64,000 bases of DNA from Solwaraspora sp. WMMD406 (GTDB lineage Bacteria > Actinomycetota > Actinomycetes > Mycobacteriales > Micromonosporaceae), in contig NZ_JARUBF010000001.1 in the NCBI RefSeq assembly GCF_029626025.1, forward strand, positions 5,984,001 through 6,048,000. The letters run 5' to 3'. The notes beneath the pieces are model-generated. The model worked only from the letters and a program-made list of their open reading frames with translations, did not search any database and was not told the DNA's origin. This document shows, piece by piece, positions 49,950 through 64,000 of the stretch. The position numbers and the translations under genes are program-made. Positions within the stretch are counted from its first letter, which is position 1; each line of letters begins with the position of its first letter.

Positions 49950-50330
49950 TCACGTGGACCAGATGAATTCCAACTCGTCTGCGGTCCCGCCGATCCGTAC
50001 CTCGGCCAGCACTTTTCGGAAGGCCGCGGCGAGGCCTCCGGCGGCGGTGCGGGTCAGCAGGTCCGGATGGTGGGCCTCGACGGCGTTGAACACCAGGCGT
50101 TCGACGGTGAGCGCGTCGACCGGACTCAACCGGCAGCCGCACGGCGCACCGTACGCCCGGCCGTTGAGTCTCGTCATCGGGGTCATCTGCCGTTCGCAGG
50201 TCGCGCAGAAGAGCAGTCCGGCCAGTGGGGACGGATGGGTCACACCCGTTGTCGGGCCGCCCCCTACGCGAACATCGTTCACCTCGGGGAGATCAGCGAT
50301 CTCATGGTGCGCGCCGCGGCTTTTGGCCAT
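49950..50330 (-). pseudogene. Isolated recombinase-type zinc beta-ribbon fragment
   Basis: A 126-residue frame reading HPSPLAGLLFCATCERQMTP, then RLNGRAYGAPCGCRLSPVDA and LTVERLVFNAVEAHHPDLLT. The L-F-C-x-x-C...C-x-C block followed by a helical region is the zinc beta-ribbon of large serine recombinases. No catalytic resolvase domain or upstream recombinase is present. It may be a decayed recombinase tail or a small stand-alone zinc-ribbon gene. It marks the left edge of the biosynthetic locus. Confidence 0.5.
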
Positions 50331-51082
50331 CGCGAACTCCTCACCATGATTCCCTGGATCGACTCGTCGCCATCGGCAGACGCAGATCGAGTCTGCCAGG
50401 GCACCCACAGTGGTGCAATGCTTAACTCGCCGGTGGAACCATAATCAAACCCGTTGAAGACCCCGAAAATACGTACAGTTCTCACGGAGTACGCCCGGGA
50501 CAGGCGTTCGCACACGGCCGAGCCACACGAACGGTTGATCGACAGACGACAACCAACGATGACACCGACCCCACCGACCGACCCCCACGGCGCGCCGTTC
50601 TCCGCTAACCTTTTTCTTCCCACGCCTCGCGCGCGCGGTGAATACCGGTGGCCGGCAGGCTCCCTCCCCATCACCACTGTCTGCCGGCCACCGCCCGTCG
50701 ACGGATCCGGCCCATGGCCTCGCGCGCACCCACCGAACATCGGTGTCCACGTCGGCCAGCCCATCGTCCGGCGCGCCCATCGGATCTCCAGCCGACCGTC
50801 CGCGCCCACAGTCACGGTGTGCGCGATCCAGCCTCCAGTCCTGACACGGGACCAGTGGCCGACCGTGGCACCGCTCGACCACCAGCACGAAATACATCGA
50901 GTTTCTTAGATCGCTCCAAACGATCACAGGTTGGACACGTGAGCATCCACGCAGGATCGGGCGGCACCTGCGAACGGACCTCGCGCGGCTCTGCTATGTG
51001 GATGATTGTTGGCCCGGACCCCGCTGGTACGCTCATGGCGAGATTGCGCAGTTGCTGACGATGCGGGGATGCTGGAGGTAAC
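50331..51082. other. Intergenic region at the left edge of the biosynthetic locus
   Basis: 752 bases with no gene I can support. Open frames on both strands (for example plus 50454-50909 and minus 50279-50815) lack codon bias, homology-like motifs and good ribosome sites. A minus frame near 50930-51036 contains a lone CPTC motif. Composition is slightly lower in GC than flanking genes. It probably holds promoters for the plus-strand operon and possibly gene debris. Confidence 0.45.
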
Positions 51083-52405
51083 GTGAGCAGGCCATCCATC
51101 TTGCTACTTGGCGCAGACCCATACGTACTACGCGCGTGCGATCAACACGACATCGACACGGTGCTCCTGTGCAACTCGGGTGCCTACGACTCCGGCCGGA
51201 TTCGCATGCCGGCGCAGGGGAAGATGATCCGGGTCGACGACGTGACGAACCCGGAGGACTGTCTCAGCGCGTTACACCGGGCTGGCCTGGGCAACCATCA
51301 GTTCGACGCGCTGCAGAGCACCTGGGAATTCTCCATCGTCACCGTGGCGGCACTGGGCAAGACGCTGGGCTGTCGGGCACTGGACCCCTCGGTCGCCGTG
51401 CGCTTCCGGGACAAGTCGCTGCAGAAGGCCCGGCTGAGTTCGGCCGGCGTCCCGGTCACCCGATGGGCTGTGGTCGAGGACATCTTCGACGTGAGCGGGG
51501 TGCCACTGGAATTCGAGCGGGCGGTCCTGAAGCCGATCGCCGGCGGCGGCACCACCTCCACCAGCGTCGTTCGCGACCGTAAGGACCTGGAGAAGGCGAG
51601 CCGCACCTGCCGCGAGGAGAAGGAAACCAAACGCACCTTCCTGCTGGAGGAATTCGTCGACGGCGACGAGTGGATGGCCGAAGGTGTGGTGTTCGGCGGC
51701 GAGGTGCTGTTCTTCGGTCTGGGCGCGTACACCGAGCCGTGTCTCGAAGCGCTCACCGGGCAGACGCCGATCTCGCTCCGCCGGCTCGATCCGACCCAGG
51801 ACGCCGAGGCGTACGAGGTCGCCGGGCCGGTGGTCCACGACGCGATCGCCGCGTTGGGATTGCGGGACGGGGTGTTCCACATGGAACTGTTCCGCGAGCG
51901 CGACACCGGGCGGATCGTCTTCAGTGAGTGCGCCGCGCGCCGGGGCGGGGCAATGACCCAGGAGCAGATTCTCGGCAAGTTCAACGTCGACCTGGGCGAA
52001 GCCGCTCTGTTCTGCGCCCTGGGCCGACGCCCGGTCCTCAACGTGAAGGTCAATCCAAAGGTGGTGGGGTGCGCGGGACTGTTCGGTCCGGCCGGCACGC
52101 TGATCAGCTACCCCACTCCCGACGAGATGTTGGCACAGCCTGACGTCGTCTTCGCCCAATCGTGGGTACCTCCGGGAGCCAATCTCGACACCAAGTTCTC
52201 CGCGTCCGCAGACATGCTCGCCGCGATGCTGCTCGCCACCGACACCGTCGAGACGTTTGACGAACGGGTACGCCAACTGCGCGAGTGGTTCGCCGACCGG
52301 GTGGTGGTGGCCGAGCCGGCACTGACCAGCGGGCAGCGGTGGGCCTGGCAGCAGCGCACCGCTCCGGATCGGCAGTACCGCGACTGGCTGTACGACGGCC
52401 CGTGA
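51083..52405 (+). CDS. ATP-grasp ligase of a biosynthetic cluster
   Basis: A 440-residue ATP-grasp enzyme. The N-terminal pre-ATP-grasp fold opens SRPSILLLGADPYVLRACDQ. The ATP-binding core includes FRDKSLQKARLSSAGVPVTR, AVLKPIAGGGTTSTSVV, FLLEEFVDGDEWMAEGVVFG and the metal site FHMELFRERDTGRIVFSECA with AARRGG. Such enzymes join a carboxylate to an amine or thiol, often forming dipeptides in natural-product loci. It starts the plus-strand operon and overlaps the exporter gene by four bases (GTGA). Confidence 0.88.
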   Translation: MSRPSILLLGADPYVLRACDQHDIDTVLLCNSGAYDSGRIRMPAQGKMIRVDDVTNPEDCLSALHRAGLGNHQFDALQSTWEFSIVTVAALGKTLGCRALDPSVAVRFRDKSLQKARLSSAGVPVTRWAVVEDIFDVSGVPLEFERAVLKPIAGGGTTSTSVVRDRKDLEKASRTCREEKETKRTFLLEEFVDGDEWMAEGVVFGGEVLFFGLGAYTEPCLEALTGQTPISLRRLDPTQDAEAYEVAGPVVHDAIAALGLRDGVFHMELFRERDTGRIVFSECAARRGGAMTQEQILGKFNVDLGEAALFCALGRRPVLNVKVNPKVVGCAGLFGPAGTLISYPTPDEMLAQPDVVFAQSWVPPGANLDTKFSASADMLAAMLLATDTVETFDERVRQLREWFADRVVVAEPALTSGQRWAWQQRTAPDRQYRDWLYDGP

Positions 52406-53793
52406 ACAGCCCAGCCGGCTCGCCCGCCGAATCGTCGTCGTCGGCATCGGGAGCGGGGGCGTCAGGAGTGGGCGCGCACCTGACGGCGTCTGCCGCACCG
52501 GCGTCCGACCACGCCGATCCGCCTGGACGGATCCGGACCGCGTTGACCCGCATGCTACCGCCGACCGGCCCGCAACGGGCGCTCGCCGGTTCGGTGTTCG
52601 CGGTGACCGTGGGCGGCGGACTTCTGCTGGGCAGCAGCACGCTGTATCTGACCCGGATCGTCGGGATGTCGGCGACCGAGGTCGGCACCGGCCTTACCGT
52701 GGGTGCCGTGGCCGGCTTGGCCGCCGGACCACTGATGGGGCACGTCGCCGACCGGCGTGGCCCGCGCGAAGTGCACATCGTGACCATGCTGTGTGGCGCC
52801 GCTGCGACCACGGGTTTCGTCCTGGTCCGGTCGTTCTGGGCGTTGGTCCTGGTCTCCCTGTTCACGACCCTGGTCAGTGCGGCCGGTCAGGCGAGCCGGG
52901 CACCACTGATCCGGGCGGTGGCCGCCGGGCGTACCACCTGGTTCCTGTCGTACCAACGGGCCATCTCCAACGTGGGCATCATGGGCGGCATGCTGATCGC
53001 GACGATCGGCATCCAGTTGGACACGGGGCCGGTCTACATCACCATGATCCTGGTCGCCGCCGCGACCTTCGTGGTGGCCGGGTTGGTCCTCACCCGGATA
53101 CCGCACGTCGAACCGCTGGCGGTGATCGCCGGCCAGGGCAGCTGGATCGCGCTGCGCGACCGTCCGTACCTGTTGGTGGCGTTGATCAACGGAGCGATGT
53201 CGGTCCACCTCGCGATCCCGGCGTTCGCGCTGCCGCTGTGGATCGTGAACAGCACGTCCACGCCTCGGATCGCCGTCACCGGGTTCGTCCTGCTCAACGG
53301 CATCCTGATCGTCGCGCTCCAGGTGCAGGTGAGCCGAGGTGTCGTCAGCCCGGCCGCCGCCGCGCGGCGGATGGTGTGGGCGGGCGCGGCGCTCCTGCTG
53401 TCGCTGGGCCTCATCGGCGCGATGGCGGGTGTGCCATGGTGGGTGGCTCTCCTGCTGTTGTCGACCGCCACCGTCGTGTACACCTTCGGTGAGCTCTGGC
53501 ACGCGGCTGCCTCCTTCGAGCTCGCATTCGGGTTGGCGATGCCACACGCTCAGGGCCAGTACGCCGGCGCGTTCGGTCTCGGGCAGGGCGCGGCCAACGC
53601 CGCAGGACCGGCGATCCTCGCCGTACTCTGCATCGAGGGTGGACTGCCCGGCTGGCTCCTGCTGGGGGCCGCGATGATGTCCCTCGGGCTGGTGACGCCG
53701 ATCGCAGTGCGCTGGGCAGAGCGCACCCGGTCCGACGCCTCCAGCGCGTCTGAAGCGCCTGCGACGCCTGCCGTGTCTACGGTCGTGACGTGA
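52402..53793 (+). CDS. MFS transporter, probable exporter of the cluster product
   Basis: A 463-residue, roughly 12-helix MFS protein after a disordered N-terminal stretch (SPAGSPAESSSSASGAGASG). Core motifs are VGAVAGLAAGPLMGHVADRR (motif A) and SRAPLIRAVAAGRTTWFLSY (MFS_1-like). GTG 52402 overlaps the ligase stop. Position between ligase and editing protein suggests export of the product. A frame extending upstream to 52285 inside the ligase gene was rejected. Confidence 0.85.
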   Translation: MNSPAGSPAESSSSASGAGASGVGAHLTASAAPASDHADPPGRIRTALTRMLPPTGPQRALAGSVFAVTVGGGLLLGSSTLYLTRIVGMSATEVGTGLTVGAVAGLAAGPLMGHVADRRGPREVHIVTMLCGAAATTGFVLVRSFWALVLVSLFTTLVSAAGQASRAPLIRAVAAGRTTWFLSYQRAISNVGIMGGMLIATIGIQLDTGPVYITMILVAAATFVVAGLVLTRIPHVEPLAVIAGQGSWIALRDRPYLLVALINGAMSVHLAIPAFALPLWIVNSTSTPRIAVTGFVLLNGILIVALQVQVSRGVVSPAAAARRMVWAGAALLLSLGLIGAMAGVPWWVALLLLSTATVVYTFGELWHAAASFELAFGLAMPHAQGQYAGAFGLGQGAANAAGPAILAVLCIEGGLPGWLLLGAAMMSLGLVTPIAVRWAERTRSDASSASEAPATPAVSTVVT

Positions 53794-53815
53794 CAAACCA
53801 TGCGAAGGTGAGATC

Positions 53816-54304
53816 GTGACGGGTGAGGATGTCTACCACAAGTTGATCACCCTGTTCGACGAGCGGGGTGCCACCTACCGGGTGATCGAGCACGAGCCGG
53901 AAGGCGTCACGGAGGCGGTCAGCAGACTCCGTGGTCACGACCCGGGTCAGGCCGCGAAATGCATCATCGTCATGGTCAAGATCGGCAAGAAGACGACCCG
54001 ATTCGTGGCTGCGGTCATCCCCGGTGACCGGCGGGTCGACTTCGGCAAACTCAAGGCGCTACTCGGCGGCACGTACGCTTCCTTCGCCTCCCGCGAGGTC
54101 GCCGAGGAGTTGGCGGGTACGGCGATCGGCACCATCCCGCCGTTTTCCTTCGACGACCGGCTGGCGGTGATCTTCGACCCGGAGCTGCTCCCGCACCCCG
54201 AGGTCTTCTTCAACGCCGGCCGTTTGGACCGGACGATCGCGTTGTCCACCAGCGACTATCTGGCCATCGCCGAGCCTCGGGTGGAGTCGATCGCCCAGCC
54301 CTGA
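53816..54304 (+). CDS. YbaK/ProX-type aminoacyl-tRNA deacylase
   Basis: A 162-residue editing-domain protein. VIEHEPEGVTEAVSRLRGHD, AAKCIIVMVKIGKKTTRFVA, AVIPGDRRVDFGKLKALLGG and IGTIPPFSFDDRLAVIFDPE follow the YbaK/EbsC/INS fold. The family hydrolyses mischarged tRNAs in trans (Cys-tRNA-Pro, Ala-tRNA-Pro, other small amino acids). Inside this operon it may protect the producer from misincorporation of its own amino-acid analogue. It is convergent with the minus operon, with 14 bases between stops. Confidence 0.87.
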   Translation: MTGEDVYHKLITLFDERGATYRVIEHEPEGVTEAVSRLRGHDPGQAAKCIIVMVKIGKKTTRFVAAVIPGDRRVDFGKLKALLGGTYASFASREVAEELAGTAIGTIPPFSFDDRLAVIFDPELLPHPEVFFNAGRLDRTIALSTSDYLAIAEPRVESIAQP

Positions 54305-54318
54305 CCCGGCGACACCGA

Positions 54319-55092
54319 TCACTTCAGCATCCGCAACGCTTCGGCGTGCAAACGGCCGTCGCCGGCGGCGAGGACCTGACCCGGCGACGTCAACCGCAGA
54401 TCGGCACCAGACCAGTCGGTCAGCAGACCGCCGGCCCCGCCGATGACGGCGGCCGGGGCGAACAGGTCGTACGGCTGCAGCCCGGCGTCGACCACCAGGT
54501 CGGTCCGACCGCTGGCCAGCAGGGCGTACGCGAACGAGCTGGCACCGTACATGGCGTATCGGGTGGCCCGACGGACCCGGGTGAACGCCTCAAACTCCTC
54601 GGCGGTGAAGAAGTCGGGATTGGAGCAGGTGACGAGGGCGATTGGCAGGTCCGCGCACGGCCGGGTCCGGACGGGCTGCCCGTTACGCCGGGCGAACGAA
54701 CCGTTGACGCCGACCCATCGGTCACCGGTCGCCGGATAGTCGAGCACCCCGATCCAGGGTCGGCCATGCCGGCTCACTCCGATCAAGGTGCCGTACAACG
54801 GTATCCCGGCGACCAGGTGGGCGGTGCCGTCGACCGGGTCCACGATCCAGGTCACGTCCGCGTCCACGTCGACGCCGCCGTACTCCTCTCCCAGGATGCC
54901 GTGCCCGGGGTAGGCGTCGCTGATCAACTCACGCAGCCGGGTCTCGATGGCGCGATCCACCTCGGTGACGAAACTGTTGTCGGCCTTGCTGTCGGGCCGG
55001 GCGGTCGTCGGGGCGGCGGCGAGCAGCTGGTTGCTCTCATCCGCCAGCTGCTCGGCGAACCGCACCAGCTCGGCGGTGTATGTGTCGATCAT
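54319..55092 (-). CDS. Inositol-monophosphatase-family phosphatase of the biosynthetic cluster
   Basis: A 257-residue Mg-dependent phosphatase. It has ILGEEYGG (metal Glu), WIVDPVDGTAHLVAGIPLYG and the late QPYDLFAPAAVIGGAGGLLT. It is a paralogue of the hisN earlier in the window. It probably removes phosphate from a biosynthetic intermediate, which fits a SerC-like enzyme directly before it. ATG 55092 overlaps the SerC-like stop (ATGA). It is last in the minus-strand operon. Confidence 0.88.
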   Translation of the reverse strand: MIDTYTAELVRFAEQLADESNQLLAAAPTTARPDSKADNSFVTEVDRAIETRLRELISDAYPGHGILGEEYGGVDVDADVTWIVDPVDGTAHLVAGIPLYGTLIGVSRHGRPWIGVLDYPATGDRWVGVNGSFARRNGQPVRTRPCADLPIALVTCSNPDFFTAEEFEAFTRVRRATRYAMYGASSFAYALLASGRTDLVVDAGLQPYDLFAPAAVIGGAGGLLTDWSGADLRLTSPGQVLAAGDGRLHAEALRMLK

Positions 55093-56282
55093 CCGATCCG
55101 ACCTTCCGTGGCGACCTGGCGCAGCGTGTCGGCGAACGCCCAATCGACCCAGGGCAACAGCGCCTGGATGTCTGCGGCGTCGACGGTCGGGCCTCCCCAG
55201 ATCCGGATCCCGGGCGGTGCCTCCCGGTGGGCCGCTAGGTCGTATCCGGCGCCGTTCTCCTCGACTGTGGCGCACAGCCGGCGGACGAACTCGGCCTGTT
55301 CGGCACGGGAAAGCTGGTCGAGGATCGGGTGGCGCAGCCGGAGACAGATGCTCGTCGCCGAGATCGTCGCCGGGTCGCGGGCGAGGAACTCCACGTGCGG
55401 ACTGTCCCGGACCCACCGGCGGACGAGGTCGAAGTTGCGCCGTGACCGGGCGATGAGTGCCGGGGCGCCGCCGAGGTCGGCGCACCAGTCGAGCGCGTCG
55501 AGCACGTCCTCGACGGCGAGCATCGACGGCGAGTTGATCGTGAAGCCGTCGAACAGGTCGTCGTCGAGCTTACCGTCGCGGGTCAGCCGGAAGATCTTGG
55601 GCAGTGGACGGTCCGGCTGGAAACAGGTGAGCCGGTCGACCGCCGCCGGCGACAGTGCGATCATGCCGTGGGCGCCCTCTCCCCCCAACGCCTTCTGCCA
55701 GGACCAGGTGATGGCGTCCAACTTGGTGTAGTCGATCTCCATCCCGAAGATCGCCGAGGTCGCGTCGCAGATGGTCAGCCCACGCCGCTCCGCGGGGATC
55801 CAGTCGGCTCCGGGGACACATACGCCGGAGGTGGTCCCGTTCCAGCAGAAGACGACGTCCCGGTCGAAATCAACGGCACTCAGGTCGGGGATCTCTCCGT
55901 ATACGTCCGTCCGGTGCACGCGCACGTCGGTCAGACGTAGTTGCGCCACGATGTCGGCCAACCAGGTGAAGCCAAAGTTCTCCCAGCAGCAGACGGCCAC
56001 ACCGGTGTGACCGAGCAGGTTCCACATCACCATTTCGATCGCCCCGGTGTCGGAGCCGGGAACGACGGCGATCCGGTAGTCCGGTGGCAGCCCGAGGACC
56101 TGCCGGGACTTCTCGATCACGGCACGCAGCTTGTCCTGTCCCTGCGGGTGCCGATGGGACCGGCCGACGAAGGCGTCGTGGAGCTGCTCCGGTGCCCAAC
56201 CTGGCCGCTTCGCGCAGGGTCCCGAGGAGAACCAGGGCCGGGCGGGCTTGCGGACGGGAGGCGCCGGTGGCGAGATCCGCAT
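55089..56282 (-). CDS. SerC-like class V aminotransferase
   Basis: A 397-residue phosphoserine-aminotransferase-like enzyme: FSSGPCAKRPGW, RSHRHPQGQDKLRAVIEKSR, PGSDTGAIEMVMWNLLG, FCWNGTTSGVCVP and the PLP lysine in TWSWQKALGGEGAHGMIALS. SerC acts on 3-phosphohydroxypyruvate or 2-oxo-3-hydroxy-4-phosphobutanoate, so a phosphorylated 2-oxo acid is the likely substrate. The phosphatase that follows would then release the hydroxy-amino acid. ATG 56282 (MRISPPAPP) is eight bases after the TauD stop. Confidence 0.87.
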   Translation of the reverse strand: MRISPPAPPVRKPARPWFSSGPCAKRPGWAPEQLHDAFVGRSHRHPQGQDKLRAVIEKSRQVLGLPPDYRIAVVPGSDTGAIEMVMWNLLGHTGVAVCCWENFGFTWLADIVAQLRLTDVRVHRTDVYGEIPDLSAVDFDRDVVFCWNGTTSGVCVPGADWIPAERRGLTICDATSAIFGMEIDYTKLDAITWSWQKALGGEGAHGMIALSPAAVDRLTCFQPDRPLPKIFRLTRDGKLDDDLFDGFTINSPSMLAVEDVLDALDWCADLGGAPALIARSRRNFDLVRRWVRDSPHVEFLARDPATISATSICLRLRHPILDQLSRAEQAEFVRRLCATVEENGAGYDLAAHREAPPGIRIWGGPTVDAADIQALLPWVDWAFADTLRQVATEGRIG

Positions 56283-56290
56283 GGCGGCCC

Positions 56291-57352
56291 TCACCCGGCC
56301 AGGCTGACGAAGTGCCGCCGAGTGCCCTGATACGCGAACCGCCCGTGTTGCAGCACCTGGTTGTCCAGCACGAGCACGTCCCCGTCTCGCATCCGTACCG
56401 CCCGGGTGGACTGCCACAGCAGCCCGCGCAGGGCGGCGATCAGGTCTTCGTCGATCGGGGTGCCGTCGCCGTACGTCGTCGTCGCCGGGTAGTCCTGGTC
56501 GGCCAGATCCGCAGGGAAGTCCGGGTGCGACCGCCAGTAGGAGCAGTGCAGCTCGGTGACCTGGTTGAACCACAGCTGCTCGCCGGTCCCGGGATGGGTG
56601 ACGAAGGCCTCCCTGCGGTAGTGGTACCGCAACTGGCCGGTGTCGGTCCACTGGTACTCGTACCCGGAGGTGCGCAGGTGCCGCTCGACGGCCGTCGGGG
56701 CGTCGGTGCCGAAGGTGTCGGACCAGCTCATCTGGCCTGGCGAGGAGACAGCAGGCAGGCTCCGGTGGTAGCGGATGCCACGGCTGCGGAAGGTTCGGGC
56801 GATGTCGTCCGGAAGATCCCGGGTGGTCTGCCGGATGTCGTTGATCGGGACTTCGCCGCCGGTGGCGGCCGCCTGCTCACAGAAGAACAGGATCGTACGT
56901 GGGAACGTCTGCAGGTACGCCATTTCGTTGTGCGGAGACAGGGTGATCCGCGGATCCTCTTCGGTGGTGGTGAGCGCGACGTCGGAGTCTTGTTTGCGAA
57001 CGGCGATGCCGCCCTGGTAACCCATGCGCGGGTACCCGAGATCAGCCACCAGCCGCTCGAAGTCCGTCCGGTCGACCAGCGGCAGACCGCGCAGCAGGAC
57101 CCCGCCGTGCACTGGCAGCGCCTCGTCGATGACGCGCCGCACTCCGGCGATCAGGGCGGTGCGGTGACCGTCCGGTCCGGACTCGGCTCGTAGGGTCGGG
57201 ATCATCTGCCCGACGTCCGGCACGAAGTCGGGAAACGACGGGTGCGCCGATCCGGCGAGGAACGGGCGGTCACGGACCGGTATCCGGAACGGCTCGCCGT
57301 GATCGACCTGGTGGAAGGCGGGTACGCCCGCCGTCGAGTCGACCGTAGTCAC
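56291..57352 (-). CDS. TauD/TfdA-family Fe(II)/2-oxoglutarate-dependent oxygenase
   Basis: A 353-residue oxygenase. The iron facial triad is visible as H141-x-E143 in SPHNEMAYL and the distal His at about 336 in DNQVLQHGRFAYQGTRRH, with the 2-oxoglutarate arginine shortly after. The N-terminal part (GGVLLRGLPLVDRTDFERLV) is family-typical. It probably hydroxylates, desaturates or cyclises an amino-acid intermediate. The HxE triad in place of HxD is accepted in SyrP/TfdA-like enzymes. It overlaps the methyltransferase stop by four bases. Confidence 0.9.
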   Translation of the reverse strand: MTTVDSTAGVPAFHQVDHGEPFRIPVRDRPFLAGSAHPSFPDFVPDVGQMIPTLRAESGPDGHRTALIAGVRRVIDEALPVHGGVLLRGLPLVDRTDFERLVADLGYPRMGYQGGIAVRKQDSDVALTTTEEDPRITLSPHNEMAYLQTFPRTILFFCEQAAATGGEVPINDIRQTTRDLPDDIARTFRSRGIRYHRSLPAVSSPGQMSWSDTFGTDAPTAVERHLRTSGYEYQWTDTGQLRYHYRREAFVTHPGTGEQLWFNQVTELHCSYWRSHPDFPADLADQDYPATTTYGDGTPIDEDLIAALRGLLWQSTRAVRMRDGDVLVLDNQVLQHGRFAYQGTRRHFVSLAG

Positions 57353-58290
57353 ATCGTCACCTCGTGGTCTACGTTGTCCGGGCCCTCAGGATGTCCACGT
57401 AGGACGACTACTTCGTGGAAGACCGGACGGGTGGGCTCGTTGGTCAGCCGCTGCCGCGCCTCCCACGCGCTGATCCGTTGACGTGCCTGTGGATCAGCGT
57501 AGAAATCGCAGGTGAAGTCCCGTTCGTAGCCCGTGCCTCGCATCGCGGTCTCCAGCCCGACGAAGAAGGAGATGTCGGTACGGCGATCCTGGCGCACGAT
57601 CCGGGACGCCAGTTCCTCCGGACGGTAGCCGTTGGAACGGAACAGCTGCAACAGGATGTCCTTGCCGATCCGGCAGCCGAGGTTGAGGATGACCTGGGCA
57701 TGTGGCGCGCAGGACCGGACCCGCCGCAGCAGGGCCTCGATCAGCCCGAGACCGACCACGTTGAACGGATACCGGTTGAAGGCCGCCCATGGGTAGTAGT
57801 GCGCTGCGTGGTCGTCCAACTGCCGCCCCGACCCGGTCGCCGCAGGCGGGGCGCCCAGGTCGAATCGCCTACCCAGCACGTCGCCGGGGTCCGGCACCTG
57901 CGGGATGCACGCGACGACCGCGTCCGCGCCGGCCGCCCGGGCCGCGGCGGCCGGCGGATCCAGCAGGTTCACCGCGCCTTCGACCGGGTGGAACCGGTCC
58001 AGCAGGTCAGGTACGGACTCGGCGACGAATCGATGTGCCAACCCGGTCAGCCGGGGGTCGAGGTCGCTGCCGTGCACCAGTTCCACCGCACAGTGCCGCA
58101 ACAGGTAGGCGACGTTCACACCGCTGCCGACCCCGACCTCGTAGACTCGTCTGCCGCCGAGACCGGCACGACGGAGGCCGGCTTGGAAGGTCAGCGTCCA
58201 CGGGTCGCGCGGGTCGAAGGCGAAGTTCGGCATCGGGCCAGCGGACCGGCGCGTCGGTTCCTGAACCGGCACCACCATGTCGGGGCTCAT
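57349..58290 (-). CDS. SAM-dependent methyltransferase resembling methionine S-methyltransferase (MmtN-like)
   Basis: A 313-residue methyltransferase with motif I RVYEVGVGSGVNVAYLLRHC and acidic loop HGSDLDPRLTGLA. The usual NPPY-type loop is replaced by ADAVVACIPQVPDP. GLGLIEALLRRV, ILNLGCRIGKDILLQLFRSN and GYRPEEL follow. The C-I-P-Q-(I/V), GLGLI and LFxxxGY pattern recalls the N-terminal domain of plant methionine S-methyltransferase and bacterial MmtN, which make S-methylmethionine. Size agrees with MmtN. The PLP decarboxylase and class III aminotransferase beside it are also the MmtN companions in the DMSP methylation pathway. The assignment is from memory of motifs. Confidence 0.6.
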   Translation of the reverse strand: MSPDMVVPVQEPTRRSAGPMPNFAFDPRDPWTLTFQAGLRRAGLGGRRVYEVGVGSGVNVAYLLRHCAVELVHGSDLDPRLTGLAHRFVAESVPDLLDRFHPVEGAVNLLDPPAAAARAAGADAVVACIPQVPDPGDVLGRRFDLGAPPAATGSGRQLDDHAAHYYPWAAFNRYPFNVVGLGLIEALLRRVRSCAPHAQVILNLGCRIGKDILLQLFRSNGYRPEELASRIVRQDRRTDISFFVGLETAMRGTGYERDFTCDFYADPQARQRISAWEARQRLTNEPTRPVFHEVVVLRGHPEGPDNVDHEVTM

Positions 58291-58291
58291 G

Positions 58292-59788
58292 TCATTGACC
58301 TCCCATCGTACGGCGGGCAGGCGGTAGCGACCGGTCCGACCGGTCCGACCGGTCCGACCGGTCCACCGAATCGTCGTCGATCAACAGGACCTCCCCGGCT
58401 CCGCCCCGCCGGCAGTGGTCGGAGCTCATCGAGGCGGCGTATCCCCCCGCGTTGAGCAGCGCCACCCGGTCGCCCTCGCACAGCCGGGTCATCCGCTGGT
58501 CGGTTGCCCAGACGTCGAGTGACTCGTTGATGTTGCCGACGACCGTGTAGGTGACCTCGTCTTCTCCCCATCGGGGTGCGACGGCGACCGGTTCGCAGGG
58601 CAGCCCGTAGAAGACCGGCTCCATCGCCAGGTTGAAACCCGCGTCGAGACTGGCGAACCGCACATCGCGCCGCTGTTCGACCGAGGTGACGGTGGTCAGC
58701 AGCAGCCCGGCGTCCTTGGCGACGTAGTCACCCGGTTCGACCGCGACCCGCAGGCCCTTGGCGGCGAACCGGTCGGCGATCGTCTCCGCCCAGGCGGTCA
58801 GGTCCAGCGGCGTGTCCTCTGGGGTGTGCGGCACACCGAGACCGCCCCCGACGTTGATCTCCCGCACCTCGCCGAAGGCGGCGACGAACTCGTCGGCCGC
58901 GTCGAACGCGGCGGCGAGTTGGTCGAGTTGCCCGTCGAGATAACCACATCCGACGTGCATGTGCAGCCGCACGACGCGCAACCCCCACTGCCGGGCGATC
59001 GCCGCCGCCTCGTCGAGGTGTTCCCGGTAGATGCCGAACTTGGTGGTGGCACCGCCGCTGTAGTTGAGCAGGTCGTTGTCCTGGTAGCCGACGCCGACGG
59101 CCGGGTTGATCCGCAGGCCGACGTCCCGACCCGGACAGGCCCGACCAAGCCGCGCCAGCGACGACACCGAGTCCACGTTGATCCGCAGATCGGCGAACCG
59201 GGACAGGGCGTCGATGTCGCGCACGGACAACGACGTCCCGGTGTACGAGATGGTTTCGACCGGAAACCCACAGGCGAGTACGTGTCTCAGCTCCCCGATG
59301 GAGCAGACGTCGACTCCGCACAGGTCGTGGGCGCGCAGGTAGGCCAGCAGCGCAGGGGCGCGGTTCGCCTTGATGGCGTAGTAGATGCGGTGGTCGACTC
59401 CCGCGTCCGACAGCGCCGCCGCGACTCGCCGGATGTTGTCCCGAACGCGGGCGGTCCGGTGCACGTACGTGGGGGTGCCGACCTGGGCGGCGAGCTCCTC
59501 CAGGTCGGTATCGCCGAGGTGGAGCCGGCCGTCCCGGTAACGCAGGTCGTCGCGCTGCCACCAGGGTGGCGTGTCCGGTCCGCTGTCCTGGTCGGCACGG
59601 ACGTAGCGCACCCGGCCGGCGAGATCGGCCAGTGCGTCGGAGATTCGCTGGGATTCACAGTCGGGTCCCAGCGCGACCCGCAGCAGCGGGTCAGGGCTGC
59701 GGCTCGTGACCACGGCCTGCTTGATCCGCAGTACGGTCAGCGCCGGCGACAGGCCACGACAGTCGAGGATTGCGGGGGGTGCTTTCAT
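58292..59788 (-). CDS. TusA-like domain fused to a fold-type III PLP decarboxylase
   Basis: A 498-residue protein. Residues about 5-65 look like a TusA/SirA sulfur-carrier domain (ILDCRGLSPALTVLRIKQAV), but the catalytic Cys-Pro is missing (GLSPAL for GLxCPxP). Residues about 85-470 form an Orn/DAP/Arg decarboxylase: PLP lysine in IYYAIKANRAPALLAYL, HMHVGCGYLDG, INVGGGLGVPHTPED, VEPGDYVAKDAG and late NAGGYAASMSSDHC. It should decarboxylate a basic or sulfonium amino acid. The C-terminus ends in four DRS repeats from a 9-bp tandem repeat. It starts 13 bases after the aminotransferase gene. Confidence 0.83.
   Translation of the reverse strand: MKAPPAILDCRGLSPALTVLRIKQAVVTSRSPDPLLRVALGPDCESQRISDALADLAGRVRYVRADQDSGPDTPPWWQRDDLRYRDGRLHLGDTDLEELAAQVGTPTYVHRTARVRDNIRRVAAALSDAGVDHRIYYAIKANRAPALLAYLRAHDLCGVDVCSIGELRHVLACGFPVETISYTGTSLSVRDIDALSRFADLRINVDSVSSLARLGRACPGRDVGLRINPAVGVGYQDNDLLNYSGGATTKFGIYREHLDEAAAIARQWGLRVVRLHMHVGCGYLDGQLDQLAAAFDAADEFVAAFGEVREINVGGGLGVPHTPEDTPLDLTAWAETIADRFAAKGLRVAVEPGDYVAKDAGLLLTTVTSVEQRRDVRFASLDAGFNLAMEPVFYGLPCEPVAVAPRWGEDEVTYTVVGNINESLDVWATDQRMTRLCEGDRVALLNAGGYAASMSSDHCRRGGAGEVLLIDDDSVDRSDRSDRSDRSLPPARRTMGGQ
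58329..58364. repeat. Four 9-bp tandem repeats in the decarboxylase C-terminus
   Basis: Four perfect copies of gaccggtcc (58329-58364), each adding a D-R-S triplet to the protein's disordered end. Confidence 0.9.
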
Positions 59789-59801
59789 GCTGTACCCGTC
59801 C

Positions 59802-61214
59802 CTAGCTGAGGTCGCCGGTGTTCAGGTCGTGCTCGGCCCGGGCGAGCGACTCGGCCATGATCGCCACGATCCGGTCGATCTCGCCTCTCGTGACGACCAA
59901 TGGTGGCGACATGATGCAGAGGTTCTCGTACGGCCGCACTAGTAGGCCGGACGTCTCGCAGTACTGGTCCACCCAGCGGGCCAGTGCCTGGTTGCGGTCG
60001 GTGGGTCCGTCCTCGCCGGGCACCTGGCATTCCACGCAGGCCATCAGGTGGTCGCCGCGTACGGCGGCCACGATCGGCGATGACCGCAGCTCACGTAGTC
60101 GCCTGACGAAGTACGGCCCGACGTCGCGGACGTGGCCGCAGATGTCGTCGCGCCGCATCACCTCGATGTTGGCGAGCGCGGTGGCACAGGCGACCGGATG
60201 ACCCGAGTAGGTGAATCCGTTGGAGAACACCGGCTTGGCCGGATCGGCCGACCGGGTCAATGTGTCGGCGACGTGGTCCGCGACGAGCACCGCGCCCAGC
60301 GGCTGGTAACCCGAGGTCAGCCCCTTGGCGGTGACCAGCATGTCCGGCACGATGCCGAACCGGGCCTCAGCGGCGAAGAAGTGGCCGAGCCGGCCAAAGC
60401 CGCAGACGACCTCGTCCGAGATGTACAAGATGTCGTGTCGCCGGCACAGCTCGCGGGCCGCTTGGTGGTAGCCGGGTGGCGGGACCAGGACCCCGCCGGA
60501 GGCGAGCACCGGCTCGGCGATGAAGCAGGCGATGCGCTCCGGACCGATCCGGCGGATTGCGGATTCCATGCCGGTGATCAGCTGATCGAGACGCTGCGCG
60601 GCGGTCACCGTGGACACGTCAGGGTCGTACACCGGGCAGTCGAGGTGGTGGATCCAGTCGGTTTCGTAGCGGAAGTCGGTCCGGTCGGCGCTCTTGCCGC
60701 ACAGCGACGCCGCGAGGTAGGTGCTGCCGTGGTAGGCGTTCTCCAGTGACAGGACGTGATGCTTCTCGGGCCGCCCCTGACTGGCGAAGTAGTAGTGGGC
60801 GATACGGACGGCGGACTCCACCGCTGTCGACCCGCCGGTGGTGAAGTGCACCCGGTTCAGGTCGCCCGGTGCCAGCTCGGCCAGGGTGGCGGCGAGCCGA
60901 GCCGCTGGTTCGCTGCCCACGTCGCCGAACGGCGTGTAGTACGGCATCCGGCGGGCCTGTTCGGTCATCGCCTCGATGAGCTCGTGTCGGCCGTAGCCGA
61001 CCGTGACGCACCACATGCCGCCGATGGCGTCGAGATATCGTCGACCTTCGCTGTCGACCACTTCGACGCCGGTGGCCTGCGACACGAGGAGCGACTCCGC
61101 ACGGCCCAGCGTGCGCAGATCCGCCCACGGGTGCAGTACGTGGCGGGCGTCCATGGCTACGGGTGACGACGTCGAGGCCCGCGTACCGTTGATGTCCTGG
61201 GTGGGGTTCGACAC
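59802..61214 (-). CDS. Class III PLP-dependent aminotransferase
   Basis: A 470-residue omega-aminotransferase. It shows the N-terminal HPWADLRTLGRAESLLVSQA, VHFTTGGSTAVESAVRIAHY, ENAYHGSTYLAASLCG, ISDEVVCGFGRLGHFFAAEA and the PLP lysine in LVTAKGLTSGYQPLGAVLV. The sequence resembles taurine/beta-alanine:pyruvate aminotransferases that act on terminal amines. With the decarboxylase downstream it could convert the resulting amine to an aldehyde. It starts 26 bases after the reductoisomerase-like gene. Confidence 0.92.
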   Translation of the reverse strand: MSNPTQDINGTRASTSSPVAMDARHVLHPWADLRTLGRAESLLVSQATGVEVVDSEGRRYLDAIGGMWCVTVGYGRHELIEAMTEQARRMPYYTPFGDVGSEPAARLAATLAELAPGDLNRVHFTTGGSTAVESAVRIAHYYFASQGRPEKHHVLSLENAYHGSTYLAASLCGKSADRTDFRYETDWIHHLDCPVYDPDVSTVTAAQRLDQLITGMESAIRRIGPERIACFIAEPVLASGGVLVPPPGYHQAARELCRRHDILYISDEVVCGFGRLGHFFAAEARFGIVPDMLVTAKGLTSGYQPLGAVLVADHVADTLTRSADPAKPVFSNGFTYSGHPVACATALANIEVMRRDDICGHVRDVGPYFVRRLRELRSSPIVAAVRGDHLMACVECQVPGEDGPTDRNQALARWVDQYCETSGLLVRPYENLCIMSPPLVVTRGEIDRIVAIMAESLARAEHDLNTGDLS

Positions 61215-61240
61215 GACCTTTCCTCTCGCTCGGCCGACCG

Positions 61241-62221
61241 CTACCGCGTGCCGAGGATCGCGCGATAGCTGTCGTGGGCGGCGGTGACGGCACTGGCCCG
61301 GTACATGGCCTGGTAATCGACGAGACTCGGGTAGTTCGCCTCGCCTTCCCTCGCGAGCGCCTCGACGAAGCCACCGTCGCGGATGTCGGCAAGGATCGCG
61401 CGCCCCTTGGCCCTGACCTCGTCGCCGATCACTTTGCCGAGGTAGCGCTGGACACCGAACCGGCAGGTCGGCGAGCCCTGCTGCTCGATCACCTCGTACA
61501 GGCCGGTCGTCGCCGCCTCGACCATCATCTCCGCCATCTCGCCGGAGGCGTGCATGTCCAGCAGCGCCGGCACGGGGTCGTAGCCGGCTTCCACCAGCAC
61601 CTCGAAGGCCATTCGGCAGGCGTCCAGCAGCAACGGGGTCAGGAACTGCTCCTGGAACAGGTCGAGCTCGGTCTCCACCGCGTGTGTCACCGGCAGTACG
61701 CCGTACCGGGTGAAGCCGACCGCCTTGGCGACGCCGAGCGTGCGGCGCCGGGCCGTACCGGTGGCGTCCTGGACAACGTCGACGAAGGCGAGCACCCCGC
61801 CGCCGTCGAGGTAACGCTGCCGGATGGGCTTACCGAACATCTTGGGTGCCAGCAGCGCCACGTCGACGTCGTGCGGCAGCGCGATGCGTCCGTACCGGAT
61901 GGAGAATCCGTGCGCCACCACGAACAGGGCGCCCTCGGCGAGGTACGGCGCGATGTCCGTGTCGTACACCTCGGGGTGCGCCTCGTCGGGAATCAGCAGC
62001 AGCACGATCGACGCGGCGCGGACCGCCGCCGCGATCGGCCTGGTGTCGAAGCCGTCGCCGACAGCGGCCGCACGGTACTCGTCGGCGCGATTGCCGACAA
62101 TCACCTGAAGTCCGCTGTCGCGCAGATTGGCAGCGAACGCCTTGCCCTGGATGCCGTAGCCGATCACGGCCACGAGCTCGCCGTCGACGTCGTCGAGGCT
62201 CGCGTCTCTGTCGAAGTACAT
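61241..62221 (-). CDS. Ketol-acid reductoisomerase-like protein
   Basis: A 326-residue protein with an IlvC-like Rossmann domain (LVAVIGYGIQGKAFAANLRD, GLQVIVGNRADE, VLLLIPDEAHPEVYDTDIAP, HGFSIRYGRI) and the knotted helical domain with metal residues in DLFQEQFLTPLLLDA. Several active-site positions differ from housekeeping IlvC: the usual GxGHxVR-type loop reads LLAPKMFGKPIRQRYLDGGG and the SxTAEYG-type loop reads SPTCRFG. An altered substrate is therefore likely. No acetolactate synthase or dihydroxyacid dehydratase is nearby. ATG 62221 (MYFDRDASLDD) is preferred to the 62323 extension. Confidence 0.82.
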   Translation of the reverse strand: MYFDRDASLDDVDGELVAVIGYGIQGKAFAANLRDSGLQVIVGNRADEYRAAAVGDGFDTRPIAAAVRAASIVLLLIPDEAHPEVYDTDIAPYLAEGALFVVAHGFSIRYGRIALPHDVDVALLAPKMFGKPIRQRYLDGGGVLAFVDVVQDATGTARRRTLGVAKAVGFTRYGVLPVTHAVETELDLFQEQFLTPLLLDACRMAFEVLVEAGYDPVPALLDMHASGEMAEMMVEAATTGLYEVIEQQGSPTCRFGVQRYLGKVIGDEVRAKGRAILADIRDGGFVEALAREGEANYPSLVDYQAMYRASAVTAAHDSYRAILGTR

Positions 62222-62403
62222 TCCTGACCACTCTCCGTATTCAGACGTACGTGTGGAGGGCCTGCCACCGTCGCCGCGCGCCATCACGCGTGGTCGTGCG
62301 TCATCGCGCCGGTGGGCGGACACGGGTACCGGGAGTCGGAAGGGACAGGTGTCGGGGTCGGCCGGTTGCCCGGGTTCTGGTGGATTGCTCGGATTCTGGT
62401 CGG

Positions 62404-64000
62404 TCAGTCGATCCCGCCGGCCCGGACGCGCTCGGCGGGAACCGGGGACATCTGGTGGACAGGGTGCTCGACCTGCGCGGACAGGGCCGCCGGTCGGTGT
62501 TCCCGGATGCGTGCGCCGAGATCCGCGAAGCGCATGTTGCGGGTGTAGACCTCGGCGAGCCGCGCGAACTCGGCTTCGCGCCGCTGCCCCGACCAGGCCA
62601 GCAGCTCACCCATCTCGCGCAGCGCCAGATCGAGGACGTCGAGGTCGAGGTCACAGCGACCGGCGTCGTCGAACACCACGGCGTCCCGGATCCCACCGAA
62701 GTTCAGCAGGTAGTCCGCGTAGCTGGTGGCCATCAGATGATGGACGTGGTGGGCGACCTTTTTCCGCAGGAACTGTGGATCCCGTCGAGCCGGTGGGGCG
62801 CTGTGCGGCGCGTACCGGTCATCCTCCGGTACGGCCAGGAAATCCAGCCGCTGCGTGGTCGACCGTCCGAGCCGCTTGACGCCCTTGCGGCGCAGCTCCC
62901 GAGCGATGTGCGCGGCGACTTCCCGGCCCGCCCACCGGAACTCGGTGAGCTTCACGTTGATCATGTCGTAGATGGCACCGCCGCCCTGACGCCGAACCGT
63001 GATCCGGAACATCCGGGAGATGTCCTGTACGGCTATCTCGCCGCCGTCGTTCGACGCCAGTGGCCGGATTCCGCAGAAGACGTTGAAGATGTCCCGTCGA
63101 CCGATCTTCCACTGGTCGCTCACCAAAGCGTTGTAGGAGTGCAGGAGTTCCTCGATCTCGTCTTCCTCGGGAACGACGAGGTCGGGGTCGACGTGCGCCC
63201 GGTCGGTGGTGGTGCACTGGATGTACCAGAGGCCGTGCTGATGGAACGGCCGCAGGTAGTGCTGGCGTACGGCGTTGAGCGGCACCAGCCCGACCTGCAG
63301 CGCCGGATCCGCTGACAGGCTCTCGTGGATGAACCGATTCGTCGCCTCCAGGTGCGAGCCCCGGGAGTAGACCACCGACGTTCGCCCGTCCGGCTGCGCC
63401 GTCCGGCTGCGGGCCTGGTCGATCCACGGGCCGGCGGCGTTGGTGATCGTGTGGGCCTTGACGGTGATTTCCGTCGGCAGTGTGTCGTCGGCGAAACGCC
63501 GGGCCAGCGTCACCAGGAAGTGGCCGCCGGCGGGGTCGTCCGTCCACTCGTAGTGTGCGACCTCGACATGACACAGTGCGCGAATGGGATGCGTCTCGGT
63601 GCCCCGATAGTAGGCGTCGCGGATCGCCTTCACCACCAGGACCTTGTCGTTGTTCGCCTTGCCTTCCCAGTACCTGATGCCCCCGAGCACGTCGTCGGCG
63701 GCCAGGTTGGGCAGGGCCCGGTGCAGCGACTCCTTGTTCCAGTACAGTTTCACCCGGCTGAACCGGGGAACGAAACTCACCCAGGCCCACAGTGCGGCGA
63801 AGGCGTCGTAAAGCGAGATGCCGAAGAACACCGACCACTTCTTTTCGGGGCTGTCCGGCAGGACGAACACGACGTTGGGGATCTCGTCCACCGTCCGGCG
63901 ACTGGTTTCGAGCAGGATCTTGCGCTCCCGGGTGCCGTACCAGACGAGCTGTAGATCCAGCCAGGCTCCCCGCAGGTTCTGCGTGAACGACTGCTTGATC
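62404..64000 (-). CDS. GlpD-like FAD-dependent oxidoreductase (cut by the right edge)
   Basis: The 3' 532 codons of a glycerol-3-phosphate-dehydrogenase-like flavoprotein. The frame runs without stop to 64000, so the GTG at 63891 is internal. Visible: NLRGAWLDLQLVWYGTRERK, FGISLYDAFAALWAWV, the FAD-family stretch TNAAGPWIDQARSR, VVYSRGSHLEATNRF, NVFCGIRPLASNDGG and the C-terminal domain TSYADYLLNFGGIRDAVV. The FAD-binding N-terminus lies outside the window. A 182-base gap separates it from the reductoisomerase-like gene. It would oxidise a secondary alcohol of a phosphorylated substrate. Confidence 0.82.
   Translation of the reverse strand, partial: IKQSFTQNLRGAWLDLQLVWYGTRERKILLETSRRTVDEIPNVVFVLPDSPEKKWSVFFGISLYDAFAALWAWVSFVPRFSRVKLYWNKESLHRALPNLAADDVLGGIRYWEGKANNDKVLVVKAIRDAYYRGTETHPIRALCHVEVAHYEWTDDPAGGHFLVTLARRFADDTLPTEITVKAHTITNAAGPWIDQARSRTAQPDGRTSVVYSRGSHLEATNRFIHESLSADPALQVGLVPLNAVRQHYLRPFHQHGLWYIQCTTTDRAHVDPDLVVPEEDEIEELLHSYNALVSDQWKIGRRDIFNVFCGIRPLASNDGGEIAVQDISRMFRITVRRQGGGAIYDMINVKLTEFRWAGREVAAHIARELRRKGVKRLGRSTTQRLDFLAVPEDDRYAPHSAPPARRDPQFLRKKVAHHVHHLMATSYADYLLNFGGIRDAVVFDDAGRCDLDLDVLDLALREMGELLAWSGQRREAEFARLAEVYTRNMRFADLGARIREHRPAALSAQVEHPVHQMSPVPAERVRAGGID

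Follow-up and report, generated by a model that had tools for sequence, protein, structure and literature searches.

A thirteen-gene actinomycete cluster that probably makes a cyclopropanol amino acid, most likely L-cleonine, and releases it as a peptide

What is made by the dense run of genes at the right-hand end of a 64,000-nucleotide stretch of Solwaraspora sp. WMMD406? This whole stretch, here called the window, covers bases 5984001-6048000 of contig NZ_JARUBF010000001.1 in a genome of 7.16 Mb with ~70% G+C, and the run begins at 51083. The initial annotation saw eleven tightly packed genes, several overlapping by four bases, and proposed that they build a modified amino acid, ligate it, export it and protect the producer. 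That interpretation is partly supported: it fits the findings below and can now be made more specific. Judged from sequence comparisons, the cluster probably produces a cyclopropanol-bearing amino acid that is then released in peptide form; the best candidate is L-cleonine, 2-amino-2-(1-hydroxycyclopropyl)acetic acid. The steps differ in strength, with trigonic acid carried by strong homology, cleonine being what we infer beyond it, and the dipeptide following more weakly.

All eleven genes are present in two convergent runs, three on the plus strand (51083-54304) and eight on the minus strand (54319 to ~64281). The cluster is cut by the window edge, as the minus-strand operon continues past it with a P-loop kinase gene at 64323-65423 and then a gene for a 2715-residue megasynthase at 65420-73567. 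The remark that no polyketide synthase (PKS) or nonribosomal peptide synthetase (NRPS) was in view is thus correct inside the window and wrong for the cluster as a whole. Its limits, 13 genes from 51083 to ~73567, are backed by the gene content of relatives. Four other genomes also keep these 13 genes together, which bears out the idea that the grouping is more than chance: G208 from the window's own family, and Actinacidiphila bryophytorum DSM 42138, G804 and G877 from Streptomycetaceae (in G877 the ATP-grasp gene runs off the fetched stretch, with 183 residues seen). Plasmid p_4 of Rhizobium lusitanum carries 11 of the 13. The genes, in window coordinates, are as follows.

51083-52405, plus strand: ATP-grasp ligase of L-amino acid ligase type (Pfam ATP-grasp_4; PDB 4wd3, 3vot)
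52402-53793, plus strand: MFS exporter (Pfam MFS_1)
53816-54304, plus strand: free-standing YbaK/ProX-type tRNA editing protein (Pfam tRNA_edit, 6.3e-25)
54319-55092, minus strand: inositol monophosphatase (IMPase)/HisN-like phosphatase (Pfam Inositol_P; TIGR02067)
55089-56294, minus strand: SerC_2 phosphoserine-type aminotransferase (TIGR01365)
56291-57352, minus strand: TauD 2-oxoglutarate dioxygenase, BurC-like (Pfam TauD)
57349-58290, minus strand: MmtN-type methionine S-methyltransferase (PDB 7vvv)
58292-59788, minus strand: TusA-like domain plus LysA-like putative S-methylmethionine decarboxylase, BurI-like (TIGR01048)
59802-61214, minus strand: class III aminotransferase, BurD-like (PRK07036)
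61241-62323, true start perhaps at 62221, minus strand: BurG-type ketol-acid reductoisomerase (KARI) homologue (PDB 7pce)
62404-64000 in the window, with its start at ~64281 beyond the edge, minus strand: GlpD-like FAD dehydrogenase (PRK12266)
64323-65423 (L005:2324-3424), outside the window, minus strand: P-loop kinase, D-glycerate 3-kinase-like (PDB 7xpc)
65420-73567 (L005:3421-11568), outside the window, minus strand: BurA-type NRPS-PKS megasynthase (Pfam domains)

A start codon scan finds four real four-base overlaps inside the window: ATP-grasp with MFS (GTG start at 52402, ATP-grasp stop ending at 52405), IMPase with SerC (ATG at 55092), SerC with TauD (GTG at 56294) and TauD with the methyltransferase (57349-57352). 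The families first assigned hold in Pfam for the ATP-grasp, MFS, YbaK (tRNA_edit), IMPase (Inositol_P), TauD, class III aminotransferase (Aminotran_3), pyridoxal phosphate decarboxylase (Orn_Arg_deC) and IlvC-like (KARI) proteins, and the GlpD-like call stands as a DAO-family protein. A promoter and terminator scan gave nothing above chance.

The first half of the proposed pathway is known chemistry and not new, so that the suggestion of a possibly undescribed locus fails for the gonyol and trigonic acid genes. Six cluster genes match the known route from methionine through S-methylmethionine, dimethylsulfoniopropionate (DMSP), gonyol and gonydiol to trigonic acid. The protein first called a methyltransferase, which has no Pfam match over cut-off, matches 7vvv in a PDB search (E 2.5e-104, residues 20-306 of 313), and 7VVV is MmtN, a methionine S-methyltransferase (PMC9135737, in part). 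After this match, a nicotianamine- or azetidine-type product made by the "methyltransferase" was rejected. The decarboxylase reaches 246 bits with TIGR01048, under the cut-off of 298, and is 47% identical from residue 71 to the decarboxylase of a bur-type cluster on Eleftheria terrae plasmid NZ_CP106953.1; its predicted structure is of low confidence, with a predicted local distance difference test score (pLDDT) of 54. The class III aminotransferase scores 652 bits with PRK07036 (cut-off 618) and is 60% identical to the Eleftheria copy, and the TauD protein is 48% identical to its counterpart there over 351 amino acids.

The megasynthase has the Pfam domain order TE-A-T-KS-AT-TE-KR-ACP and aligns with the Eleftheria BurA-like protein in a single alignment over residues 18-2701, at 48% identity. 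In the DMSP-loading A domain of BurA, the Asp is lost and the hydrophobic loop is shorter (PMC7496086, in part). The same two features, no Asp235-type residue and a shortened hydrophobic loop, are found here: the loop reads NVFFAWEC, without Asp, in the window, A. bryophytorum, Rhizobium and Eleftheria proteins and NVFFGWEC in G208, and the corresponding stretch of gramicidin synthase is FDISVAEIF. The KARI is closer to BurG (7pce, E 3.3e-86, 293 bits) than to the best canonical KARI (3e-59, 204 bits). Cluster KARIs are 47-50% identical to the Eleftheria copy and 33-41% identical to four canonical IlvC proteins, one of which is from the host itself. A tree of nine proteins separates these four from the Eleftheria copy and the four cluster KARIs with support 100. 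Counted by hand, Asn48 and Asp51 of the BurG NAD+ pocket and the catalytic Glu232 are kept, and Tyr133 is replaced by Phe; the Asn/Asp pair also occurs in a halophile IlvC.

In the parts of the bur literature used here, BurC makes gonydiol, BurG makes (R)-trigonic acid, and nine other organisms carry burG together with gonydiol genes (PMC9359912), while NRPS-linked mmtN clusters are predicted to give DMSP-derived secondary metabolites (PMC9135737). By this route, MmtN would S-methylate methionine to S-methylmethionine, the LysA-like enzyme would decarboxylate it, the class III aminotransferase would convert the sulfonium amine to the aldehyde, and a dehydrogenase encoded outside the cluster would oxidize the aldehyde to DMSP. 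The NRPS-PKS would then load DMSP, add one malonyl unit and ketoreduce to gonyol, the TauD enzyme would hydroxylate gonyol to gonydiol, and ring closure by the BurG-type KARI would expel dimethyl sulfide and yield (R)-trigonic acid. We consider it very probable that the cluster forms trigonic acid.

Why should such a cluster also hold a kinase, a GlpD-like flavoprotein, a SerC and an IMPase? In trigonic acid, C3 of D-glycerate forms part of a cyclopropane ring, and cleonine is serine altered likewise; by the priority rules, applied by hand, (R)-trigonic acid shares its configuration at C2 with D-glycerate. Because of this resemblance, a copied phosphorylated serine pathway could handle trigonic acid. 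All four enzyme classes of that pathway are present, with active-site residues mostly kept at the level of sequence. The best PDB match of the kinase is the D-glycerate-3-kinase 7xpc (E 7.6e-9, residues 90-323), followed by 6ckg at E 0.0011; this was not a blind prediction, as the translation had earlier been read by eye as glycerate-kinase-like. In the GlpD-like protein, a hand count finds identical residues aligned with R54, Y55, R317, R332 and K354 of 2qcu, which we take to be Escherichia coli GlpD, with these residues presumably in a substrate-binding role. The SerC, whose early family call is upheld, scores 523 bits with TIGR01365 (serC_2, cut-off 448), passes two phosphoserine-transaminase cut-offs and keeps the SHR motif aligned with 2fyf, presumably the Mycobacterium tuberculosis SerC. 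The IMPase reaches 238 bits with the histidinol-phosphatase model TIGR02067 (cut-off 275).

Elsewhere in its genome the host encodes another SerC, of SerC_3 type (595 bits), and another IlvC (253 bits), so the cluster KARI and SerC are second copies. In an unrooted tree from a small sample, with G804 and G877 left out, four cluster SerCs stand apart from seven other SerC_2 proteins (approximate likelihood-ratio test (aLRT) 94.9, ultrafast bootstrap (UFBoot) 95), and the window SerC groups with the Rhizobium cluster copy, though Rhizobium is an alphaproteobacterium. An earlier tree with the host SerC_3 as a very distant outgroup gave weak supports of 36-75 and was rerun without the outgroup row. 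On two symbiosis plasmids, pSYMBR3459 (L035) and pMspAR07b (L036), a divergent SerC_2 occurs with a HAD phosphatase and an SDR, possibly another copy of a serine-like pathway. In the proposed second half, the glycerate-3-kinase-like protein would phosphorylate the cyclopropanol oxygen of trigonic acid, the flavoprotein, as a phosphotrigonate 2-dehydrogenase, would oxidize C2, SerC would transaminate to O-phosphocleonine, and the IMPase, as a phosphocleonine phosphatase, would remove the phosphate to give cleonine. This serine-type route to cleonine is likely. No account of cleonine biosynthesis, nor of the serine-type half or the ligase, was found in searches of the open-licence PubMed Central literature, and for this part of the locus the suggestion that it may be undescribed stands.

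Several points weigh against this reading and have to be set beside it. The kinase falls under every Pfam and NCBIfam cut-off and is distant from GLYK, and the structure predicted for the A. bryophytorum kinase is unusable (pLDDT 38). The GlpD-like protein scores 111 bits with PRK12266, where the cut-off is 360, and is distant from GlpD. The GlpD substrate, sn-glycerol 3-phosphate, has the opposite hand at C2 to a phospho-D-glycerate-like substrate (assigned by hand), so the flavoprotein would need a different stereochemistry. In the G208 SerC, one of the four cluster copies aligned, the His of SHR is Phe (SFR), and ordinary substrates derived from glycerate may be what the serine-type enzymes act on. 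In the first half, Glu232 of BurG was dropped as a diagnostic residue, as the position is Glu in all nine aligned KARIs, the canonical ones included. No DMSP-aldehyde dehydrogenase is found in the cluster or its fetched flanks; loss of burE merely lowers malleicyprol (PMC7496086, in part), so a housekeeping dehydrogenase can serve this step. The Rhizobium copy showed no ATP-grasp or MFS gene in the 51.8 of 85.8 kb searched, and the peptide step would then not be core.

One weak point of the account is the TusA-like domain that precedes the decarboxylase. Of the fusion described in the initial annotation, the decarboxylase part stands and the TusA-like part, residues 1-65 of the 58292-59788 protein, is weak (Pfam TusA E 0.033, under cut-off). 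The window, G208 and A. bryophytorum proteins have the domain as a fusion, and in Rhizobium (L020:19208-19462) and Rhodovulum (L021:13422-13688) it has a gene of its own; the Rhodovulum version is also under cut-off (E 3.8e-4) and the Rhizobium version has no Pfam TusA match. It lacks the CP motif, which we take to be the usual TusA motif, and the N-terminal end of the Eleftheria decarboxylase shows no such domain.

How would the amino acid leave the cell? The ATP-grasp protein has two PDB matches, 4wd3 (E 3.7e-21) and BL00235, 3vot (E 8.8e-7). Both are L-amino acid ligases, so a dipeptide is likely wherever the ATP-grasp gene is present. This ligase would couple cleonine to another amino acid, and the MFS protein would export the peptide; we lean towards dipeptide formation and export, as judged from these families. 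YbaK-type proteins take wrong amino acids off tRNA. The eight PDB matches of the YbaK-type protein include 2cx5, YbaK and ProXp-ala, and every one of the five clusters has its gene, as does the Rhizobium cluster (40% identity there). It would hydrolyse tRNA mischarged with cleonine and so may protect the producer. Since no ATP-grasp gene was found beside the Rhizobium copy in the part of the plasmid searched, the amino acid itself is suggested to be the shared product.

Pairs of ATP-grasp and MFS genes also occur on Streptomyces plasmids, in two of the six rows listed, and one such pair adjoins NRPS, ketosynthase and further ATP-grasp genes. At a distance of 9 kb from the first, a second peptide-ligase-like locus lies outside the window (82435-87814 in window coordinates; L006:436-5815). 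It has a PreAtp-grasp/PGM1_C ligase and a 2OG-Fe_Oxy_2 hydroxylase, followed by genes whose translations, read by eye, look like a GFA-like protein, a PatB-like aminotransferase and an MFS protein. A phosphonate dipeptide was also considered and rejected: general family scans gave no match to phosphoenolpyruvate (PEP) mutase among the 13 genes, a genome-wide search for the enzyme not having been made.

The distribution of the genes also bears on what they do together. Within the window's family, 2 of 354 genomes, the window's own included, have the kinase (E 1e-20); among 394 drawn from the class (E 1e-8) and 396 drawn from the phylum (profile, E 1e-10), only the window's own genome has it. 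MmtN is found in the same two of the 354 and in 3 of 394 genomes drawn from the family of A. bryophytorum (both E 1e-20), and all five MmtN genomes carry the full set, two of them (the window's and A. bryophytorum) having been starting points. A pattern scan of genome contigs, with short patterns, gave 2 loci from 243 matched stretches. Identities among relatives are ~50 to 80%, and the genes come in three layouts: three forward and ten reverse in the window, nine biosynthetic genes inverted with the IMPase left in place in G208, and, in A. bryophytorum, G804 and G877, a single strand carrying all 13. A 31 kb plasmid stretch of Rhodovulum P5 has only the aminotransferase, TusA-like/decarboxylase and MmtN genes, and this DMSP-only locus gives no match to the kinase, GlpD, SerC or IMPase at E 1e-3. 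Six of the 13 genes lie on a 7.7 kb contig with a G+C content of 69% filed under Melainabacteria.

In the Rhizobium copy, the aminotransferase, KARI and megasynthase are each split, perhaps by decay or by frame errors in the assembly. The Candidatus Melainabacteria contig (L013) carries actinomycete-like cluster genes and is possibly a binning error. In A. bryophytorum (L019:3403-7249), G804 and G877, the cluster adjoins the same sugar-type ABC transporter operon, >90% identical, which was not found near the window copy; the flank is probably a shared insertion site. Directly left of the window cluster, at 49950-50408, is a possible serine recombinase fragment (zinc-ribbon match under cut-off), and to the right of the megasynthase, translations read by eye give a PRC-barrel-like protein and an Nramp-like transporter. 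On a broader view, which we hold at about even chances, this is a dedicated, transferable pathway to free L-cleonine, with the serine pathway recruited whole, shared by actinomycetes and a root-nodule Rhizobium plasmid, the actinomycete end being an exported antimetabolite cleonine dipeptide with YbaK immunity.

Other explanations must be weighed against the cleonine peptide. The one that survives best holds that the cyclopropanol amino acid is later rearranged or ring-opened, or that the ligase adds something other than an amino acid, so that the end product is neither cleonine nor its dipeptide. The bur system does have an enzyme that opens the cyclopropanol (PMC12790350, in part), but no family among the 13 genes is an obvious candidate for opening the ring or for further tailoring; we regard this as unlikely. 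Also unlikely is that the kinase, GlpD-like protein, SerC and IMPase make ordinary serine or phosphohydroxypyruvate as the partner in ligation, trigonic acid itself being ligated or exported. Their families do belong to serine and glycerate metabolism, and SerC is above a phosphoserine transaminase cut-off. Against this stand the host's separate SerC_3, the separation of the four cluster SerCs from the other seven in the unrooted tree, and the fact that the serine-type set accompanies the cyclopropanol genes in two phyla.

A malleicyprol-like polyketide, to which trigonic acid would continue as in bur clusters, is very improbable and was rejected on searches with Eleftheria queries (E 1e-8). 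Five enzymes are homologous to the bur-type cluster, with MmtN serving the methylation step, but the DNA fetched for the five clusters and the Rhizobium plasmid gave no match to FkbH, aldehyde dehydrogenase, SET methyltransferase or fatty-acyl ligase from Eleftheria, and BurF-like and AMP-binding queries matched only inside the BurA-like megasynthase. Production of osmolytes alone (DMSP, gonyol) is the least probable and was rejected: MmtN-type genes often serve DMSP synthesis (PMC9135737, in part) and Rhodovulum P5 showed just the DMSP part, but here conservation extends beyond that part to the hydroxylase, cyclopropanol synthase, serine-type set, ligase and editing protein.

Cleonine has been known from natural products for decades. 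If the cleonine reading is true, ten genes plus a dehydrogenase encoded elsewhere make up a testable path from methionine to cleonine, and a BurG-type KARI beside a glycerate-kinase-like gene and a SerC becomes a marker set for finding more cyclopropanol amino acids. The cluster would also illustrate clearly how an entire section of primary metabolism can be copied on account of a secondary metabolite that resembles its substrate, and how a tRNA editing protein can be employed for self-protection.

Among known systems, the nearest are the bur/mal (malleicyprol) clusters of Burkholderia (PMC7496086, PMC9359912, both in part), compared here through the Eleftheria plasmid, whose bur-type cluster, judged by homology, passes trigonic acid on to a PKS. 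Homologues of BurI, BurD, BurA, BurC and BurG are shared with its bur-type cluster at 47, 60, 48, 48 and 50%. Methylation is by MmtN instead of the SET-domain BurB, and no match to the BurE-type aldehyde dehydrogenase or the FkbH-type BurH is found in the DNA fetched for the five clusters. BurF, which loads trigonic acid together with BurH and BurJ (PMC12304814, in part), matches solely within the BurA-like protein; BurJ was not searched for by itself. In turn, the kinase, GlpD-like, SerC, IMPase, YbaK, ATP-grasp and MFS genes of the window cluster, and MmtN, have no match in the 53 kb Eleftheria stretch (E 1e-8). The mmtN-NRPS clusters of Streptomyces mobaraensis and Agrobacterium vitis share MmtN, DMSP genes and a BurA-like NRPS with ours (PMC9135737, PMC7496086, both in part); for them, too, a secondary metabolite with DMSP as an intermediate has been predicted, and they may be the same kind of cluster.

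With the phosphorylated serine pathway and D-glycerate 3-kinase the cluster shares a kinase, oxidation at C2, transamination by SerC and a phosphatase. It differs in using a GlpD-like flavoprotein rather than SerA, an IMPase-family enzyme rather than SerB, and a proposed substrate with a cyclopropane at C3. Some dipeptide antimetabolite clusters, such as that for rhizocticin, employ an L-amino acid ligase; like them, the window cluster has an ATP-grasp L-amino acid ligase and an exporter, and unlike them it shows no PEP mutase match among its 13 genes, its proposed warhead being a cyclopropanol amino acid. Cleomycin contains cleonine, the amino acid predicted here. Valgamicin C contains it as well (PMC13194151, PMC8037709, both in part). 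In both compounds cleonine is part of a longer peptide, whereas the sole NRPS module of the window cluster is a DMSP-type loading module.

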